Translations under genes and position numbers: made by a program
The notes under the pieces: model-generated
The model's input: only the letters and a program-made list of their open reading frames with translations
The model's database searches: none
What the model was told of the DNA's origin: nothing
Source of the DNA: a virus
Virus record (IMG/VR): IMGVR_UViG_3300025151_000142
Span: 1-34,568 of that record
Strand: one strand, 5' to 3'
DNA length: 34,568 nt
Shown: piece by piece, positions 2,181 to 17,699 of the stretch
How the letters are laid out: every line of letters begins with the position of its first letter
Position numbering within the stretch: the stretch's first letter is position 1

Positions 2181-2864
2181 ATGCGTAAAGCAGGTCAATT
2201 AATTGCAGAATATTTACGTGAAAAGAAGCTTTCTTCAAACAGAGAATCTCCCATTGGCATGGGTGCTTATGGGCGCGTTTATCCTTCTAATCTCGAAGGT
2301 TATGTGATTAAAGAAAAGCATCGTCCAGGTGAATGGACAAATTATCACGATAATAGTTATACAGATGAAGCAGGGTTACAGGCAGCTGCTGCTGAAATGG
2401 GCATAGCCCCTCAGGTCTCTTCTGTCGAAACATTCCGTGGTGGCATTGGTGATCGCATTGAAATGCAAGATATTCGTAAAAACTTTGAGATGCCCCCAGT
2501 TTCATCCCAATGGCCCACTGGTCAGAACGCTATACGTATTAACCAGCAGTTGGGTCAGTTAGCCCTCAAAGGAATTGACTTAGATGATCGTCACGCTGGT
2601 AATGTTGTCTATAACAAAATGACTGGAAGGCCGATGCAACTTGACTTTGGCCGTGCTTCTCGTGTCGAGGGTGAGATGCAAATTGATGCCTTAACTAGAG
2701 CCACAGCAGATGGATTTGCTGCTGCTGGGCTCAATGATGTTGCTGAGATCTTCAGAGATACCGTTTATGACCTCATGGCTGGTGGTGACTTTAAAGAAGC
2801 CATGGATGTCGCTAAGCAAGGCTTTAGTAGGCTTCAAAAAATTAAAGAGCCTATACTTTCTTAG
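2181..2864 (+). CDS. Protein-kinase-fold protein
   Basis: The 227-aa protein carries the main landmarks of a kinase fold in order. These are a glycine-rich loop GMGAYGRVY (26-34), a lysine in YVIKEK (K44), a helix-C type glutamate (E63), a hinge-like IEMQDI (93-98), a catalytic loop LDDRHAGNVVY with D136 and N141 at the canonical spacing, and a metal-binding DFG (155-157). It lacks the usual C-lobe length and the HRD histidine-arginine pair, so it is a minimal or atypical kinase. ATG 2181 is forced by an in-frame TAG immediately before it. The only ribosome-site-like sequence (AAAGGA, 2158-2163) suits an out-of-frame ATG at 2173 better. Its tail overlaps the convergent gene by 14 nt. Possible roles are host-protein phosphorylation or a virion-carried enzyme. 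Confidence 0.7.
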   Translation: MRKAGQLIAEYLREKKLSSNRESPIGMGAYGRVYPSNLEGYVIKEKHRPGEWTNYHDNSYTDEAGLQAAAAEMGIAPQVSSVETFRGGIGDRIEMQDIRKNFEMPPVSSQWPTGQNAIRINQQLGQLALKGIDLDDRHAGNVVYNKMTGRPMQLDFGRASRVEGEMQIDALTRATADGFAAAGLNDVAEIFRDTVYDLMAGGDFKEAMDVAKQGFSRLQKIKEPILS

Positions 2865-3177
2865 TATTGTCTCGATAAATTCCTGATAAAGGATCAACCA
2901 TTTCTGGGCGCAGTTCTTTCTCTCTTGCTTTCTGCGCACTCAGATCCATCATTCGCAGTTGCTGAATACCAATACCAGCACTTTGTCCGCCAGTCCCTGG
3001 TCTTTGAGTTGTTGTGTTGATTGGTGTATTGGCTTGATAAGCCATCTGCCCTTTATAAGCCTTTGCTCTTTTCAGTGCTAGCTGCTGCGCTCCGGCAGCT
3101 CCTGACTGATTAAAGTCACTGCGATCACGGTACGATAAACGACGTCTGTCAATTGGTGTATTTCTAAATGCAGACAC
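2851..3177 (-). CDS. Hypothetical small protein (108 aa)
   Basis: A basic, Gln/Ala/Arg-rich protein starts with GTG at 3177. It has low-complexity character (for example GAAGAQQLALKRAKAYKGQM) and no recognisable domain. A TAGAATAAA motif lies 20 nt upstream (3198-3206), matching the candidate late-promoter motif seen at other genes, and an AGAGG sequence lies between them. It is convergent with the kinase-like gene, overlapping by 14 nt. The composition resembles minor virion proteins, but no function can be assigned. Confidence 0.6.
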   Translation of the reverse strand: MSAFRNTPIDRRRLSYRDRSDFNQSGAAGAQQLALKRAKAYKGQMAYQANTPINTTTQRPGTGGQSAGIGIQQLRMMDLSAQKAREKELRPEMVDPLSGIYRDNTKKV

Positions 3178-3198: not shown

Positions 3199-3426
3199 TT
3201 ATTCTACTCCAATTTCTCGTCGCACTTCTTTAACAGCATTTGCCAATGGTCCCATCAATGTCACCATCCGCTTAGGTACTTCGTTGTCAATCCGATCAAT
3301 CGTTTTTTCAATTGTTTCTAGTCTTGCGGCAACAGCACTTGCATTCTTTTTGTACCTACGATCAGTCAAATAAAGACCGCTGCCACTCAGCAATACTGCT
3401 ACTACAGGTCCAATAATAAATTCCAT
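3199..3426 (-). CDS. Small membrane-anchored coiled-coil protein
   Basis: The 75-aa protein has one N-terminal membrane segment (EFIIGPVVAVLLSGSGLYL, residues 2-20) followed by a basic turn and a long charged helix likely to form a coiled coil (residues 30-72). This topology fits an inner-membrane lysis accessory protein or a scaffold at the membrane. No lysis cassette partner is adjacent except other small membrane proteins further along the strand. The identity is unknown. Confidence 0.6.
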   Translation of the reverse strand: MEFIIGPVVAVLLSGSGLYLTDRRYKKNASAVAARLETIEKTIDRIDNEVPKRMVTLMGPLANAVKEVRREIGVE

Positions 3427-3460: not shown

Positions 3461-3787
3461 TTAAAACATAATCATGTCATCTCCATCGATGTCATCGTCT
3501 TCAAACTCAGTATCCATAATGTCTCCAGGCATTTCATCGTAAGCATTCTGCAATAGCTCTACAAACGTTTCTTCTGAAATAATCTCTGGAAGTCCACCTT
3601 GTAATTCATCTACTTTGAAAATAATGCCATTGGCAAGCAATGTCTGCTGGATGCCATTCTTTTGTTCCATTCGTGTTTTCAATAAACGAACCACAGTTTT
3701 TTCAAGTGCCGGCTTGCTCATTCGAGCTGTTTCATACCTAGCACGTTGTAAAGCGAACCTCTGTTCGATTGTCAATGTGTTTTTCAT
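3461..3787 (-). CDS. nblA: NblA-like phycobilisome degradation adaptor
   Basis: Residues 5-57 fit the NblA pattern: an LTIEQRFALQ start, then an MSKPALEK segment, a second helix with LLKTRMEQ, and LLANGIIF at the end. Compare the family pattern L.lEQqF.L......mS.e.....l..l..qmm.r...y..LLk. NblA dimers tether phycobilisomes to Clp protease for degradation during nutrient stress, and functional viral copies are known from freshwater and marine cyanophages. Unlike the usual 55-65 aa NblA, this protein is 108 aa and ends in a strongly acidic tail (about residues 90-108, EFEDDDIDGDD). Translation is supported by GAGGAAG nine bases before the ATG, inside the end of the HNH gene, so the two are probably coupled. 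The call rests on visual motif matching. Confidence 0.6.
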   Translation of the reverse strand: MKNTLTIEQRFALQRARYETARMSKPALEKTVVRLLKTRMEQKNGIQQTLLANGIIFKVDELQGGLPEIISEETFVELLQNAYDEMPGDIMDTEFEDDDIDGDDMIMF

Positions 3788-4130
3788 CTAATTCTTCCTC
3801 GATAAATCTTTTACATGAGATCCATTCTTCAATGAGTTCTTTGGCCGTTTCATTATAAAATGTTTGGCCTTGAAACCACTCTAACCAAGGTTCTGATCCT
3901 TTTGAGTGATTGCACTCAATGCATGCAGGAAGAAGATTGCTTCGTAAACTTGATCCGCCTCTGCTTCGTGGTTTTAGATGGTCTAGAGTTGTCGCTCGGT
4001 TGCAGCGACAATATGCACATAAGCCGCCCCAGCCGTATTTAATTGACTTGCGAAACTTACGCTTAGCTACCTGTTTAGACAGGCAGGAAAGATCAAACAT
4101 TAGATCCTTCCAGTCTTCAGCGATACCCAT
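3738..4130 (-). CDS. HNH endonuclease
   Basis: The 130-aa protein has a compact zinc-binding HNH domain: CAYC (about 38-41), then TTLDHLKPRSRGG with the first HNH histidine, NLLPACIECNHSKG with the Asn, the second Cys pair and the final His. It could be a homing endonuclease or a phage HNH nuclease used in DNA processing; there is no split host gene around it to prove homing. Its last 50 nt overlap the start of the NblA-like gene and contain that gene's ribosome site, so nuclease and NblA are likely co-expressed. Confidence 0.85.
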   Translation of the reverse strand: MGIAEDWKDLMFDLSCLSKQVAKRKFRKSIKYGWGGLCAYCRCNRATTLDHLKPRSRGGSSLRSNLLPACIECNHSKGSEPWLEWFQGQTFYNETAKELIEEWISCKRFIEEELDEKHIDNRTEVRFTTC

Positions 4131-4382: not shown

Positions 4383-4682
4383 CTATACTTTTTTATTCAA
4401 ATCTCTTTGATTCTGTGCGGCTAGCATCTTTTCAATGTCCTCTTTTGTCAGAGTCCCTTTACCGTTTCCTTTTGTTGTCTGAATTCCAAATGTAGATAGT
4501 ACCCCAGTAAAAATAGATGCCACAAATGTATTATCAAATTTTTGCTCAGGAATTCCGAGATACGCAGGTAGTTGAATGTAAGCCAATGTAAGGATTGCTC
4601 CACTCCAAACAAGAATACCCAGTCGAACAAATGTTGACAGAATTTCTAAACGTGATTCCTTGTCATTCTCGTGATTGTCCAT
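4383..4682 (-). CDS. Two-TM membrane protein, holin candidate
   Basis: The 99-aa protein has a charged N terminus, two hydrophobic segments (about residues 20-43 and 52-67) and a hydrophilic, Lys/Glu-rich C-terminal tail. Size and topology match class II phage holins, which form the membrane lesions that release endolysin. An M15-type peptidase (probable endolysin) is encoded on the same strand at 9202-9837. The assignment is by topology only; other membrane roles are possible. Confidence 0.55.
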   Translation of the reverse strand: MDNHENDKESRLEILSTFVRLGILVWSGAILTLAYIQLPAYLGIPEQKFDNTFVASIFTGVLSTFGIQTTKGNGKGTLTKEDIEKMLAAQNQRDLNKKV

Positions 4683-6291: not shown

Positions 6292-7059
6292 TCATTTCAC
6301 CAATTTAATTTGCGAGGCCATATCTTCTGCTAAAACGTCACCATAGCTTGCTGTCATGCCTTGAGGTTTATGTCCCACAATGGCCATAGCAATACTGTAC
6401 TCAACACCTGCCTGCCGCATCCGAGTAATAAATGAATGGCGGATGCCATGAGCTGAAATGCCTGTATGTTTCTTTAGCTTCCGGCTAAAGTAATCACCTG
6501 CGTTTGCGTTTGTTGTAAATGGGAAGCGATCGATATATTTAAAAAACTCTGGATGTATTGGCACCTGCCGTTGCGTGTAGTTGTTCTTACACTTACGGAT
6601 GTGATTGTGTTCAATATTGATATAGGGCACATCGGCATCGGTTACAAAATCTTCAGGCAACAAGCAGGCCACTTCACTAATCCTGAAACCGTGTAGCCAG
6701 ACCGCCATGAACAGTGGATCGTCATGAAACCGCTGAAAGTGATCAAACTTTTTGTGAGGATATTTTTTGTAAGACTTATCTAATCCTTTGAGTAGCCCTT
6801 GCCATGGATTCCATTTGATGATTCCCATGTGGACCCCTCGGTTAAACATGCTGCCGATATAACCAAGTTGTGTGCGTATGTAGCCAGTGCTGTGATTACA
6901 TTCGAGTAGTTCGCAGCGATGATCAATGGCAAAGTCTCGATCAATTTGATCGACCTCTACATTTTCAATATGCCTGGCGGCGTGTCGCCACCCGTATTGG
7001 GTCGAATCAGAAAGTCGTTTGAATGAAAGCGTTCGCTTAAGCAGGTTGGAAATGAGCAT
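6292..7059 (-). CDS. int: Tyrosine recombinase / phage integrase
   Basis: The 255-aa protein has an N-terminal helical core-binding part (1-110) and a C-terminal catalytic domain. The catalytic residues are visible in order: Arg in WLHGFRISEVACL, His and Arg in HGIRHSFITRM, His in AIVGHKPQG, and the nucleophilic Tyr in TASYGDV. It therefore appears intact and able to integrate and excise phage DNA at a tRNA or other host site. It is short (typical phage integrases have 300-400 residues) because an N-terminal arm-binding domain is lacking or reduced. A consensus promoter lies about 125 nt upstream. It is the last gene of the long - strand block, but with its own promoter. Confidence 0.95.
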   Translation of the reverse strand: MLISNLLKRTLSFKRLSDSTQYGWRHAARHIENVEVDQIDRDFAIDHRCELLECNHSTGYIRTQLGYIGSMFNRGVHMGIIKWNPWQGLLKGLDKSYKKYPHKKFDHFQRFHDDPLFMAVWLHGFRISEVACLLPEDFVTDADVPYINIEHNHIRKCKNNYTQRQVPIHPEFFKYIDRFPFTTNANAGDYFSRKLKKHTGISAHGIRHSFITRMRQAGVEYSIAMAIVGHKPQGMTASYGDVLAEDMASQIKLVK

Positions 7060-11426: not shown

Positions 11427-14400
11427 TTAGGTAAAAGTTCCGAATATTGCAACAGCATATGTTGCACTAGCTCCAAGATCATTTCTGATTGTAATGAGGT
11501 TTGAGCCGGCTGTTTTTGTGACACCTGTTGTGTTCGCAACATTATTATTTGCAGTAAAATCGCCGAATGGATCGGAAATTTCCATAATAGTGCTACTTGC
11601 TGTATTAGCAAAGAATGCTCCGCTTGTGCCGTTTGTTACCTCACTGCAGTTGGTCACAGTGATAACAAACAAGGAACCATATCCGATATTAAAAGATGTT
11701 GTAGCATCGTTATCCACTGTGAAAGTACCATTGCTTTTATAAGCTTCTTTTGCAGTTGTAACTTTTACTTCACCACCAAAACTCGCATCTCCATCAGCTG
11801 TAATATGAGCAACATCAGTACTGCTGGCACCTGTCTTAACGGTAAATACTTTTGTCGAACCTGTAGATTCGGTGTTAATTGTGGCCTCGCCGGTGCTCTG
11901 GACAGAGAATTTGCGGTTTCCATTATGAATACCACCAGCGTTAAGTCCGTCATCAAATGTAGCGGATCCAGCAGCTGTAATCAAAGAGGTGTAATTACTT
12001 GAAGACGTACCTCCACGGAAAACATGATTGCCGCCACCATCAGTTCGAGATGCTTGGAAAGCACCGCTTGCGCTGTCGGCACTTACTTGCCCAGTAAACA
12101 CCGCATTTCCGCCGCTGTTGAGTGTTAGCCGTGCGTTTTCAGAAGCACCAGTCCTAAACACAAGTGAATCAGTATTACCACAATCAATACTTGCTTTTCT
12201 ATTTCCACTTCCGCTTATCCAGCCAATTCTGTTTGCATCTCCAGATCCTTCTGGAAGAGTAATTCTATAAGTGATATCAGAATCTTTGCCGACACCCAGA
12301 TAACCTGAGCTTCCATCAATGCGTGCAAACTCACTGCCAGAAGATTTAAATCTGATAAACCCACTGCCGCGTGTGTCAAAGGAGAATCCACCGTTTTCAG
12401 CAAACATTTCCATAATGCCGCCGTTGCCGTCACTTGATTGCAGCCTGATGCCAACAGCAGAATCTGATCCTTGGATTAGCATCCCTTTGTTGATAGCGCC
12501 CAGGGTATTATTTGCAGATCCAGCAGGAACAAAAGTATTGCCAATACCAAAGTTGCCAGCGTAATCAATAATAACTTTGTCTGTATAATTATTGCTATTG
12601 TCATAGCGACGAATTTTAAATGCACCCTCAAGACCGTTATTCGTCTTTCCAGCAATAACTGCTACTGATGGATCACTATCATATGAACCACTTCCTGGAT
12701 CAAGTGTAATTCGATCTTCTGCATCACCACCAAAAAATCCAGTTCCATCACTACCTCTAATTCCAATATTAGCGTCGCTAGTTAAGTCGCCTCCAAGGTA
12801 AAGATCACCGTCTGTTTGCAATCCTGAATGCCAAACGTTAGAGCTTGAGTTTTTAGCAGCCCAAACATAGTGAGCACCGGCAAGGACTGTACCAGTTTGG
12901 AACCAGGACGCAGTTGTTGAATTTTGAGCTGATAAAGAACTTGTTGTAATTGATCCGGCAAACTCTGCGTTTCCGCTGCTGTTTAAAAACAAAGGAATGC
13001 GATTATTGGTTATATCTTTAAAAACAAGACCATAAACTGAGGCACTATTAGGAGCAGCTATTTGCCAGTCATTTGTGGCACCTTTTAAATTTAATACAGT
13101 ATCGCCACTAGCTCCAGTACCTTCAATGCGAACTGTATGATCACCTGTAGCAGCAGCTTTTACATGAAGATCAACAGAAGGATCTCCTGCTCCTATCATT
13201 ACGTTACCTGCATCATTGATTAGTAATCGTTGAGTGCCATTCTGTTCAAATTTAGTTACTCCCGCACTTCCACTCATAAACAATAGATTTGCACTATCTG
13301 CTCTTATATGAACACTGTTATTAGTGCCAGCAGTTCCATGTGAACCTATTGTGATACGTGCGTCAGCAGCACCAGTACCAAATTGAGCATCGCTGGCAAA
13401 CGAGGCAGACCCATCGTGAAAAATGCTTGCTTTATAACCGGCTGTACTGTTAACTTTATATACAGCAAAAGCGCGGTGCGTTGAATCTCCAAGGCCATTA
13501 ACATATAAACCGTAACTGTTATTGTTCCAAAGCTTTGCACTACTTGCTGTAGTTGAAGTATAGTTGCCAAATGTGGCAGATCCATTCGTGTCCAAAATGA
13601 GATTAGAATTGGAAGACGAAGCGTTTCCAGTGTCTTTTAGAAAAATTCCCGAGTCTTTGATGACAATCTGACTGACATTGCCGACACTGACATCGCCCCC
13701 AAACTCCGCATTTCCGGTGCTGGTGATTGTAGCTCTTATTGTTTCACTAGAGCCTGTCTTAAATATGATTCCTGCATCTTTTCTATTATTAATTTCTATA
13801 TTTCCTGCGGCTGAATGTAAAATGCTTGCATAATCTGCGCCTGTGCCGTCTCCATTTGAATCTCCATCCAAGATAATTTGTGCAGCATTAGAATCAGTTG
13901 AGCCAACTAAAAGCCCCTGACTACCGGCACCCCTGACTTCTAGTTGATAATTTCCTGATGTGTGTCCCCCAATCAACACCCGCCCCGAGCTGTCGATCAT
14001 CATTGCAGGCGTAGAGCCTGGCGTTGTGCCACCATTAGCTGTTGATTGCCAAAACTCAAGAGCACCAGCAACGTTGTAGTTTGAACCTACAAACCAAGTT
14101 TTTGTGCCTGATGCGCCGTGATAATTAGTGTAAGAACCGCCGGAAACGGAGCTACTACCTAGTGTTAGTTTTGCAGTACCAGATGATGGAGTAAGGTTAA
14201 TTGAGCCAATCGTATTTATGTTGCCGTTGCCTGAATCAATAGACAATCTTGCATCGCCAACCGAATCTGAACTGGTTCCAATTAATAGCGAACCATACTT
14301 TGAGATTCGGCTTGAAAGTCCAGTTGGAGTGCTAGATCCTTGGACTTTAATTTCACCAGCAGATGCAATTGCGCCATCAAACTCCGCATTTCCGGTGTTG

Positions 14401-17400
14401 GTGATGGTTAGCCGTTTTGTTGATGATGCACCATCTGCTGCTCCTGTATAAAACTCAAGCTGACCAGAAGACGATCTAATTTCTAAATCATTACCCGCGA
14501 GCTGCATATATGCCTGATAGTCGCCACCATCATTTAATTTGATGGCTGGAATGCTAGCTCTATAGATCTCAACAGCTGCACCTGGACTGTCCGTACCTAT
14601 ACCGACGTGTCCGCCACTATTAATTCTTAGAGCTTCAGTATTTCCCGTAGAAAATACCATACTATCAACGCTGTGCTGGTAATAGATACGTCCTGCTCGG
14701 TTTTCCGCATTTCCATTTGTGCCGTCTGCAAAATGGATTGCTCCATAAGGAGAACTACCACCACTTCTAATAGTGATACCTGCATTGCCGGATTCATCGG
14801 CAACTAGAAGAGTTTGTGCAATGCCATCGTAAGAAGTATTGTTGTTTGCGCCAATGCCAACTCGTCCAGAGCTGTCAATCCGCATCCGCTCTGCGCCAGC
14901 AGTTGCCCATTTCAAATAATTTGCGCTGTGATCGTACTGAACATATCCTTGATATTCTGCAGAACCAGAAGTACCATCAGAAAAGAAAATTGTTCCAACA
15001 CTGCTTGTGCCAGAGCGTAAGGTAATTCCACAATGTCCAGAGTCTGCAATAGTTAAATTATCAGCAGTTGCTTCTCCTTCGGTTGTAGTTCCAATTAACA
15101 CTCTTCCCGAGCTGTCGAGAGTTAACTTTTCAGTACCATTGACATGGAATATATGACTAAAAGCCTCGTATTTAGCGTTTGCCCATCTGGTTGCAGTACC
15201 GCCAGTAAAATATATTGAGTTGGTTGCATCTCCGTTAGCATTTGCACCAGCTGTAGTTGCTAAATTTAAAACTCTATCAGCTGTTCCTGTTGTTAAAACT
15301 GAAAGCTTTTGTCCGGGTGATGAATTTCCAATTCCTACATTGCCAGAGCTGGTGATCCTCATTGCTTCATTATTACCAGCACCAGTCGAAAGAGTTTCGA
15401 ATGCCAGAGAATCTCCGTCATGACGATAGATAATTCTTCCGCGTCCTGACGTGCCATCAGAGAATAAAAGCTCTTGTTGTGCAGAAGAGCTAGTGCTCTT
15501 AAACTCTAAGTTTCCTGTTGCACCTAATCTTAATCGTTCAGTTATCGTTCCATCTACAGAAGTAGAGAAACGCATGCCACCTGTATCATCACCAATACCA
15601 TCAATAGCACCACCATCATTAGCTGTATTATCTAAAAGAAGACGCGAATAATTAGTAGCATGGTCACGTTCAATATGAACGGTTGGATAACCTCCTTTAA
15701 CATGCAAGGCAGCATCTGGACTTGCGCCAATTCCAACATCTCCTGAGCTATTAATGTGAATAGCCTCGACTTCAGCTGATCCGCCAACATTAAAAGTGAT
15801 TGGACTATTTGCATAGCTAAGAATACTTGTCTCAGCAGATGTCGCATTAAATTCTGCTCGTAATGTTGAACCTGTATAGAAACCAAGTGACGGAGCGTTG
15901 TTATCTTGAATCGACAATAACTTTCCAGGACTGTCAGTTGCAATTCCAACTAGGCCTGTGTTTTTAACAACAATACTTTTGTTATTATTCGATAGCAACT
16001 CAAGATCAAAATTACCAGTTGTACCAACTTGCAGGACACTTGCTGAGTTCAGGACTGAACTATCGCCGCTTGGCTGACTAAAGGATCCGTTAACTGTTAA
16101 GTTGCCAGGAATAGTAATATTGCCAGAACTGTCAATTGTTAATCTTGAAGTTGTATTAGATGCTGTGCAGAATTTAAACGAATTGGTTGCATGTACATAT
16201 TGAATTAAACCAGCATCTTCATCATCAGTATCACCAAAATTAATGTCTGAAGAAGCAGCATTGCCAGCTACAATCGCAATCTTTGCGCCATGTCCTGTCG
16301 TAGAACTTCGTTGGAATAAAGCAACTGTTTGTGATTGAGCTGTGAAAGTGCTTCCCGATTGCCGAACAACTAAATTTGCAGATGGATTTGTCTCGTTAAT
16401 ACCGAAATTACCTGAGCTAGTAACACGGATGCGTTCAGCATTTGCAGTGTAGTCATAAACAGCCAGTTGACCATCAACGCTTGTGTACCAACCATATTTA
16501 CGTCCGCCACTGCCCGTTGATTCAAGCAGCATTCTTGCAGTGGTGCTATCAGTTATCTGCAGCGTTTTTGTTGATGCAGTGGAGGTAGGCGAACCACCAA
16601 TACCAAAATCACCATCTGGGTCAAATCTGGCAACTTCACCATCGACATTAGAAAACTTCAGTGACCCACCACTGCCTAGGTATTTAATACCTGCAGATCC
16701 GTTTGTTCCTGTCTGCCCTAACTCAAGATAATAACCACCTGAAGTTGTTCCACCAACTTTTAAAGCATAATCATCATCGTTAATAACCTCAAGTTTTCGA
16801 CTTGGACTGGTCGTATTAATGCCAACATTTCCAGTACTGTTAATAACAGCCTTCACTCCAGCATTAACGGTAAAGCTCAGTTGATTGTCAGTATGAGCGT
16901 ATTGAATTTTTGCTATATCATTATCTTGCGGATCAGCAAATGCTAAATATCCACTTTTATTATTTGGAGAGCCAATTGTAATCCCCCCATCATCATCGTT
17001 TTCAATGAATAATGTGTCATGAGTAGTATTCGGTGTTACTCCGCTTTCGCCTTCTTTGACATGCAGGATGCCTACCGGAGATACTTCGTTGATACCGACA
17101 CGACCTTCTGTATCAATTCGGAGCCTCTCATTCGAGGATCCATTGGTATAGAACCGAAGAGGGCCAGTTGTATCTGTTCCGATGAATGCACCGTCGCTAG
17201 CTGAAGTTCCAGCTGGACCTAAACGTAAGGTTGAATTGCTTTGTGTTTGACGAATATAAGCATTACTCGCATTTGAAATATCAAGTGCATGGCTTGGGGA
17301 AGATACACCAAAACCTACATTGCTTGTAAAGTTAGCAGTGCCGCTAATGTCAAGAGTATTGGTGACATCTAAATCAGCAATTGTCGTTAATAGAGGTTCA

Positions 17401-17699
17401 GCTCTAACCCATGCACTACCTGTATAGACATAAAGTCTATTGTCATCAGTATCGAAATACTGGTTACCAGCTACTGGATTTGATGGGGCAGTAGCAACAA
17501 TTGGGACTTGTGTTTGTCCCATCCCAACTGCGTTTTCACCGCTAATTCTAACTACTTGATTATTACTATCCTTCATGAAAATAGAAGGATCAGTAGTGCT
17601 AAAATTAACTGCTAACTCTCCATATTCCAGCTGATCTGCACTTGGAGTTTTTGCACTACCACTAACTAATACACTACTGCGCTTCAGCTGAATTTTCAT
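11427..17699 (-). CDS. Giant repetitive tail fibre / receptor-binding protein (2090 aa)
   Basis: Residues 1-100 (MKIQLKRSSVLVSGSAKTPS, then QLEYGELAVNFS and a NQYFDTDDNRLYVYTGSAWV segment) match the virion-attachment start of cyanomyovirus and other fibres. The long shaft contains about twenty copies of a loop-and-strand motif of the type SG(N/R)VGIG..SP or TGNAEF.G, alternating with sugar-binding-like beta segments (LRLGATGNLEF, ERMRIDSSGRVGIG). This implies a long beta-structured, probably trimeric rod. No S74 intramolecular chaperone signature is visible at the end; the last ~100 residues form a different beta domain (SFNIGYGSLFVITV, ending YAVAIFGTFT), probably the receptor-binding tip. 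It is 18 percent of the window. It probably sets host range, and repeat number may vary by recombination. Confidence 0.85.
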   Translation of the reverse strand: MKIQLKRSSVLVSGSAKTPSADQLEYGELAVNFSTTDPSIFMKDSNNQVVRISGENAVGMGQTQVPIVATAPSNPVAGNQYFDTDDNRLYVYTGSAWVRAEPLLTTIADLDVTNTLDISGTANFTSNVGFGVSSPSHALDISNASNAYIRQTQSNSTLRLGPAGTSASDGAFIGTDTTGPLRFYTNGSSNERLRIDTEGRVGINEVSPVGILHVKEGESGVTPNTTHDTLFIENDDDGGITIGSPNNKSGYLAFADPQDNDIAKIQYAHTDNQLSFTVNAGVKAVINSTGNVGINTTSPSRKLEVINDDDYALKVGGTTSGGYYLELGQTGTNGSAGIKYLGSGGSLKFSNVDGEVARFDPDGDFGIGGSPTSTASTKTLQITDSTTARMLLESTGSGGRKYGWYTSVDGQLAVYDYTANAERIRVTSSGNFGINETNPSANLVVRQSGSTFTAQSQTVALFQRSSTTGHGAKIAIVAGNAASSDINFGDTDDEDAGLIQYVHATNSFKFCTASNTTSRLTIDSSGNITIPGNLTVNGSFSQPSGDSSVLNSASVLQVGTTGNFDLELLSNNNKSIVVKNTGLVGIATDSPGKLLSIQDNNAPSLGFYTGSTLRAEFNATSAETSILSYANSPITFNVGGSAEVEAIHINSSGDVGIGASPDAALHVKGGYPTVHIERDHATNYSRLLLDNTANDGGAIDGIGDDTGGMRFSTSVDGTITERLRLGATGNLEFKSTSSSAQQELLFSDGTSGRGRIIYRHDGDSLAFETLSTGAGNNEAMRITSSGNVGIGNSSPGQKLSVLTTGTADRVLNLATTAGANANGDATNSIYFTGGTATRWANAKYEAFSHIFHVNGTEKLTLDSSGRVLIGTTTEGEATADNLTIADSGHCGITLRSGTSSVGTIFFSDGTSGSAEYQGYVQYDHSANYLKWATAGAERMRIDSSGRVGIGANNNTSYDGIAQTLLVADESGNAGITIRSGGSSPYGAIHFADGTNGNAENRAGRIYYQHSVDSMVFSTGNTEALRINSGGHVGIGTDSPGAAVEIYRASIPAIKLNDGGDYQAYMQLAGNDLEIRSSSGQLEFYTGAADGASSTKRLTITNTGNAEFDGAIASAGEIKVQGSSTPTGLSSRISKYGSLLIGTSSDSVGDARLSIDSGNGNINTIGSINLTPSSGTAKLTLGSSSVSGGSYTNYHGASGTKTWFVGSNYNVAGALEFWQSTANGGTTPGSTPAMMIDSSGRVLIGGHTSGNYQLEVRGAGSQGLLVGSTDSNAAQIILDGDSNGDGTGADYASILHSAAGNIEINNRKDAGIIFKTGSSETIRATITSTGNAEFGGDVSVGNVSQIVIKDSGIFLKDTGNASSSNSNLILDTNGSATFGNYTSTTASSAKLWNNNSYGLYVNGLGDSTHRAFAVYKVNSTAGYKASIFHDGSASFASDAQFGTGAADARITIGSHGTAGTNNSVHIRADSANLLFMSGSAGVTKFEQNGTQRLLINDAGNVMIGAGDPSVDLHVKAAATGDHTVRIEGTGASGDTVLNLKGATNDWQIAAPNSASVYGLVFKDITNNRIPLFLNSSGNAEFAGSITTSSLSAQNSTTASWFQTGTVLAGAHYVWAAKNSSSNVWHSGLQTDGDLYLGGDLTSDANIGIRGSDGTGFFGGDAEDRITLDPGSGSYDSDPSVAVIAGKTNNGLEGAFKIRRYDNSNNYTDKVIIDYAGNFGIGNTFVPAGSANNTLGAINKGMLIQGSDSAVGIRLQSSDGNGGIMEMFAENGGFSFDTRGSGFIRFKSSGSEFARIDGSSGYLGVGKDSDITYRITLPEGSGDANRIGWISGSGNRKASIDCGNTDSLVFRTGASENARLTLNSGGNAVFTGQVSADSASGAFQASRTDGGGNHVFRGGTSSSNYTSLITAAGSATFDDGLNAGGIHNGNRKFSVQSTGEATINTESTGSTKVFTVKTGASSTDVAHITADGDASFGGEVKVTTAKEAYKSNGTFTVDNDATTSFNIGYGSLFVITVTNCSEVTNGTSGAFFANTASSTIMEISDPFGDFTANNNVANTTGVTKTAGSNLITIRNDLGASATYAVAIFGTFT

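Follow-up and report, generated by a model that had tools for sequence, protein, structure and literature searches.

Phage NblA is usually described as the product of a short, host-like accessory gene. Cyanobacteria take their light-harvesting antennae apart with the help of NblA, a small protein. Its length averages 63 amino acids; a motif close to the N terminus binds ClpC, and phycobiliproteins are bound close to the C terminus (PMC4103541). Among phages, Ma-LMM01 and PaV-LD are established carriers of NblA. According to a review, nblA genes from marine viral metagenomes caused phycobilin loss in S. elongatus in earlier work (PMC9602691).

Here we describe an NblA-like protein encoded in a virus record of 34,568 bases (the window, by which we mean this whole stretch), which is classed as linear and is probably a fragment. 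The open reading frame lies on the minus strand, from an ATG start at 3787 to a stop codon at 3461-3463 (feature 3461-3787), and encodes 108 amino acids (MKNTLTIEQRFALQRARYETARMSKPALEKTVVRLLKTRMEQKNGIQQTLLANGIIFKVDELQGGLPEIISEETFVELLQNAYDEMPGDIMDTEFEDDDIDGDDMIMF). A sequence-only reading of this DNA, from which the minus-strand location was absent, had proposed that the protein is an NblA homologue of nearly double length with an Asp/Glu-rich tail, that it may form a nitrogen-recycling module with a nearby glutamine riboswitch, and that the tail could alter the choice of protease partner or bring about self-turnover. The length is indeed nearly twice the NblA average. Our own interpretation, to which we give modest confidence, is that this phage protein belongs to the NblA family and bears a C-terminal module specific to its lineage, and that phycobilisome degradation is its most economical function.

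The NblA match and the phage relatives

The best Pfam match of the window protein is NblA (PF04485; residues 5-50, E=5.2e-5), at 24.0 bits and so just below the curated cut-off of 25 bits. In scans of viral contigs, 78 relatives came to light, giving about 80 related loci in all; relatives reach 30-33 bits against PF04485, and 13 of the 21 long records lie above the cut-off. The family alignment has 64 members of 107-114 amino acids, every one with the C-terminal extension. NblA is matched by 63 of these 64 (Pfam, E<=0.01; best 7.2e-8), and the sole other Pfam family matched in the set is DUF4606, by one member. Against PDB chains, the family profile ranks S. elongatus NblA (3cs5) first, with E=3.6e-5. 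When the 64-sequence alignment was compared by hhalign with ten NblA sequences, drawn from plasmids and two phage records (short NblA fragments used as tblastn queries returned no phage NblA), the score was 38.5, whereas none of 150 column-shuffled controls exceeded 19.9.

It might be argued that unrelated two-helix proteins have come to resemble each other by chance, given that short helical hairpins match easily and that the window protein alone falls just short in Pfam. We find this scarcely credible, because relatives pass the Pfam cut-off and two divergent groups (the second is introduced below) each score far above shuffles against NblA, in an identical register. The resemblance of the window protein to NblA is beyond chance, and the homology first proposed from the letters has survived a search for a profile match, which was found by Pfam, by hhalign against shuffles and in nearly all family members.

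Several weaker matches were set aside. Nonagvirus proteins (tblastn, E 0.2) were taken as chance, the protein being of 253 amino acids, in an unrelated context and with a profile alignment outside the NblA region; PHROG matches at E 0.01 were likewise taken as chance. Neither PF04485 nor the family profile matched anything in S-TIM5, Syn5, P-SSP7, P60, S-RIP1 or S-SCSM1, and the 'nblA' calls published for some of these phages either lie below this sensitivity or concern a different family.

Among 50,697 phage records, the sole matches to the portal and terminase of the window were those of the isolate S-EIV1 (48% and 55% identity respectively), and it was via S-EIV1 that a sister group was discovered. 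The S-EIV1 protein AHV82245.1 gives a weak profile match (E 0.009) and has NblA as its only Pfam match (E 0.014); the group that includes it spans at least 554 contigs. Against NblA this sister group scores 38.1 by hhalign, with a shuffle maximum of 17.9. Direct hhalign of the window family against the sister group gave 26.9 in one comparison and 25.7 in another, whose shuffled controls reached 28.2, which is no proof by itself that the two are each other's closest relatives. Each group matches NblA better than it matches the other, so that the extension could either be shared by descent or have arisen twice.

The status of the gene within the lineage was examined in a small sample picked by the portal gene and not by the NblA-like gene, which keeps it non-circular. 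Exactly one NblA-like copy is present in all eight such contigs above 60 kb and in one of 39.7 kb; in the four of 39-45 kb without the gene, its expected site, ~25 kb downstream of the portal, falls past the contig end. The NblA-like gene is a single-copy core gene of the window's lineage. That the hosts are cyanobacteria follows from psbA, found in 16 of 21 long marine records, and from the isolation of S-EIV1 on Synechococcus. Three MAG loci in the collection (L091-L093) are contigs of 8-9.6 kb in which the phage neighbourhood is found; they are probably phage DNA that was mis-binned.

Predicted fold, binding residues and the C-terminal extension

For the window protein, AlphaFold (AF2; single chains, 64-sequence alignment) places two helices at residues 7-21 and 25-52. 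A third helix, more weakly predicted, spans 72-82, and the tail beyond it is predicted to be disordered. The pLDDT averages 71.8; it is about 81-91 in blocks over residues 11-50 and near 90 over 11-40, and falls to about 46-59 in the tail; pTM is low (0.35), and only secondary structure was therefore used. The first two helices, of 15 and 28 residues with a 3-residue turn, make up the NblA domain placed by AF2 and hhalign at residues 5-52 (3632-3775, minus strand). The same 15-3-28 layout is predicted in the sister group, where a third helix again follows and the acidic end is again disordered. The helix-turn-helix monomer fold of NblA is thus predicted for both groups, and the homology claim withstood this comparison of folds as well. 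Foldseek against the PDB retrieved no NblA structure, a search that is uninformative for a two-helix model, and VIA-align 2 likewise yielded nothing of use.

The N-terminal helix carries the LxxEQxF motif, to which ClpC binding is assigned (PMC4103541) and of which L5, E8, Q9 and F11 are invariant in all 64 members, a matter of sequence presence and not of binding. At the other end of the domain, the residues to which phycobiliprotein binding is assigned in Anabaena NblA, L51 and K53, align in the hhalign register to T49 and L51 of the window protein. The K53 position is basic in all eight classical NblAs of the ten-sequence set that reach it; in the marine family the same column holds methionine in 35 members, leucine in 13, alanine in six, arginine in five, histidine in three and glutamine in two, and in the sister group it is alanine in nearly all. 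The L51 column (49) is mainly threonine in the marine family, although L51 varies among classical NblAs too. The canonical phycobiliprotein-binding residues are thus largely missing from the marine family, in which T predominates at column 49 and M or L at column 51. Judged by these residues, the ClpC side appears to be kept and the canonical cargo side not. As the cargo-binding residue is not kept, antenna breakdown cannot be read off homology; and because the protein has neither the cargo residues nor the short length of NblA, we have not filed it as a canonical NblA, although it may well work like one. Domain net charge differs also, being +4 to +7 in 64 of 64 members versus -5 to +1 in the ten NblAs; the sister-group domain is acidic (-3).

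Beyond the NblA domain, columns 67-75 are near-invariant (PEIISEETF) and lie directly N-terminal to, and run into, the third helix (residues 72-82; 3542-3574, minus strand). There follows the acidic tail, residues 83-108 (3464-3541, minus strand), with hydrophobic residues at its end and a net charge of -12 over the last 26 residues, which agrees with the Asp/Glu-rich tail noticed from the letters. In the 64-member alignment, P67, E68, I69, S71, E72, T74, F75, L79, E96, D99 and D103 are invariant after the domain; within the tail, D92, E96, D99, D103 and L105 are conserved, and the last 25 residues are 36-52% D/E, lacking K or R in 60 members. Close pairs give a dN/dS of about 0.03 in the domain and 0.05 in the tail, rough values with synonymous sites near saturation. 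The acidic tail is not peculiar to the window phage: about 80 related loci have conserved it.

By homology with NblA, phycobilisome degradation is the likely function. The helix-turn-helix domain would pair into an NblA-type dimer, a four-helix bundle, its N-terminal LxxEQxF helix would hold the host ClpC unfoldase, and the protein would bring phycobiliproteins to it; antennae would be dismantled and degraded, probably late in infection, which would free amino acids and lower the absorption of light. As for the C-terminal module of third helix and acidic tail, it would most probably supply further contacts with cargo or ClpC, take the place of existing ones, or set the rate at which the adaptor is itself consumed. 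This reading is supported by the near-absence of any Pfam family but NblA among the matches, by the hhalign scores that the window family and, independently, the sister group reach against NblA, by the helix layout predicted in both, by the invariant N-terminal motif, by the cyanobacterial hosts and by the phycobilin loss that marine viral nblA reportedly caused in the work reviewed (PMC9602691). Against it stand the K53 position, which is not basic in most of either group, the basic domain where NblA is mildly acidic, the finding of no phycobilin or cpeT gene in the long records, and a near-universal presence that exceeds expectation for a patchy accessory gene.

The main alternative is that the adaptor has been retargeted: the NblA scaffold and ClpC-facing helix would be kept, and the C-terminal module would replace phycobiliprotein binding, aiming Clp at some other host or phage protein. 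The invariance of the N-terminal motif beside the loss of a basic K53-position residue in both groups would fit this, as would the constraint on the residues past the NblA domain, which equals that on the domain, and the syntenic, single-copy, core nature of the gene. We nevertheless consider it unlikely: published marine viral NblAs, possibly including the window family, reportedly cause phycobilin loss (PMC9602691); the variability of L51 even in classical NblAs suggests that contact residues may vary; and no cargo is known. The wider proposal is that a widespread class of cyanophages has made NblA into a different Clp adaptor and holds its gene as core: the ClpC-facing helix would be kept, and the phycobiliprotein-binding end would have given way to a conserved third helix and acidic tail through which other cargo is chosen. 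This too we rate as improbable.

Gene neighbourhood and the glutamine riboswitch

Just upstream of the NblA-like gene is an HNH endonuclease gene (3738-4130, minus strand; Pfam HNH E 6.3e-8), found in about 80 of 82 loci, the 3' end of which overlaps the NblA-like start out of frame by 50 nt (3738-3787); overlaps of 50-185 nt occur in most loci. Downstream comes the gene for a small protein with an N-terminal hydrophobic segment and a coil (3199-3426, minus strand), in the same order in 81 of 82 loci and usually starting about 31-38 nt past the NblA-like stop. The last gene of this minus-strand run (2851-3177; 79 of 82 loci) encodes a conserved 108-amino-acid protein without a match in Pfam or PHROG. 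The order of these four genes is kept in 74 of the 79 loci examined, and the NblA-like gene sits at the end of the strand that bears the structural genes.

This setting could suggest that the protein is no longer a Clp adaptor, and instead serves in structure, packaging or DNA metabolism on an NblA fold, with the tail as a docking peptide like those of SSB tails. Besides the constant company of an HNH nuclease gene and two small genes on the strand of the structural genes, such a role would suit the combination of basic domain and acidic tail, which resembles acidic-tailed nucleic-acid-binding proteins, and the tails of S-EIV1-type proteins, which end LxPF in 18 of 18 where the S-EIV1 SSB ends DEPF. 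However, the marine group lacks the PF end, the window protein finishing in DDMIMF and not in an SSB-type acidic run closed by P-F, an ending that even the S-EIV1-type group has only in part; the acidic domain of the sister group means that DNA binding would not be common to both; and no structural or packaging family was matched in Pfam or PHROG. We regard a structural or DNA-related role as distinctly unlikely, and as less likely than retargeting of the adaptor.

S-EIV1-type NblA-like proteins (L152-L231; L095:34403-34720) have an acidic run and LxPF end like those of bacterial SSB tips, and phage SSBs end DEPF in S-EIV1 and EVPF in one relative. A relative with QLF at the end of its SSB has SFL at the end of its NblA-like protein. 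Such cases are very few.

The riboswitch to which the sequence-only reading drew attention is genuine. The feature it gave as 634-896 comprises a glutamine riboswitch aptamer (RF01739) at 632-684 on the plus strand (cmscan 49.3 bits, E 4.8e-8, versus a gathering score of 35) and the plus-strand 61-amino-acid ORF which it leads, at 711-896 (phrog_545, with weak similarity to DUF4278). The joint module envisaged there would have the NblA-like protein release nitrogen and the riboswitch gene read glutamine, the two acting together. The two elements are indeed present and close in 17 of 19 relatives scanned, always on opposite strands, but inherited synteny within one lineage suffices to account for such a conserved neighbourhood. 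In the window they lie about 2.8 kb apart with genes between them, and their transcripts converge to a meeting point near 2.85 kb. The gene led by the riboswitch is a different one, and no shared regulation or shared regulatory element was seen. We therefore think a nitrogen-recycling module very improbable, and this part of the original proposal is not supported.

Other features of the window include a tyrosine integrase (6292-7059), also present in 48 related loci, which suggests a temperate lineage; a family A DNA polymerase, in whose C-terminal end the window begins (3-143); a DUF6450 (PF20048) protein (4386-4682; E 4.9e-32); and a repeat-rich ORF of 2,090 amino acids (11427-17699), probably a tail fibre. 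In relatives, exonuclease and polymerase are encoded as separate ORFs (L033:10239-12563; L055:12493-14705).

Comparison with known systems

Flores-Uribe and coworkers reportedly described, in 2019, an uncultured marine cyanophage lineage in which nblA occurs together with an integrase and a DNA polymerase in split form, and Nadel and coworkers are said to have dealt with its NblA in the same year. The window lineage is probably this one: it shares the NblA-like gene, the integrase (in 48 loci) and the separate exonuclease and polymerase ORFs, a likeness in described gene content. The window gene may already have been reported and tested, and this probable earlier report of the lineage's NblA limits the novelty of our finding. 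For S-EIV1, the portions of the literature on this phage and nblA available to us contain no NblA assignment.

What emerges is an extended NblA form that is fixed and single-copy in one marine cyanophage lineage, with a divergent form common in S-EIV1-like phages. If antenna degradation proves true, all these phages carry that function; if it does not, this would be a case of phages turning a host protease to new targets through changes in an adaptor already known.

With cyanobacterial NblA (PF04485; 3cs5, 1ojh, 2q8v, 2qdo) the window family shares the helix-turn-helix, the LxxEQxF motif and the register of the whole 48-residue domain; the cyanobacterial proteins differ in their length of about 63 amino acids, in having no third helix or acidic tail, in a basic K53 position and in a mildly acidic domain. 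The freshwater phages Ma-LMM01 and PaV-LD likewise carry a phage-borne NblA domain, but theirs are short, lack the acidic tail, score 52 and 45 bits in Pfam and belong to other phage lineages. S-EIV1 AHV82245.1 and its group combine NblA domain, third helix and acidic tail as the window family does, yet have low sequence similarity to it, end in PF, possess an acidic domain and, in S-EIV1, are encoded by a gene that follows a lysozyme gene, unlike that of the window.
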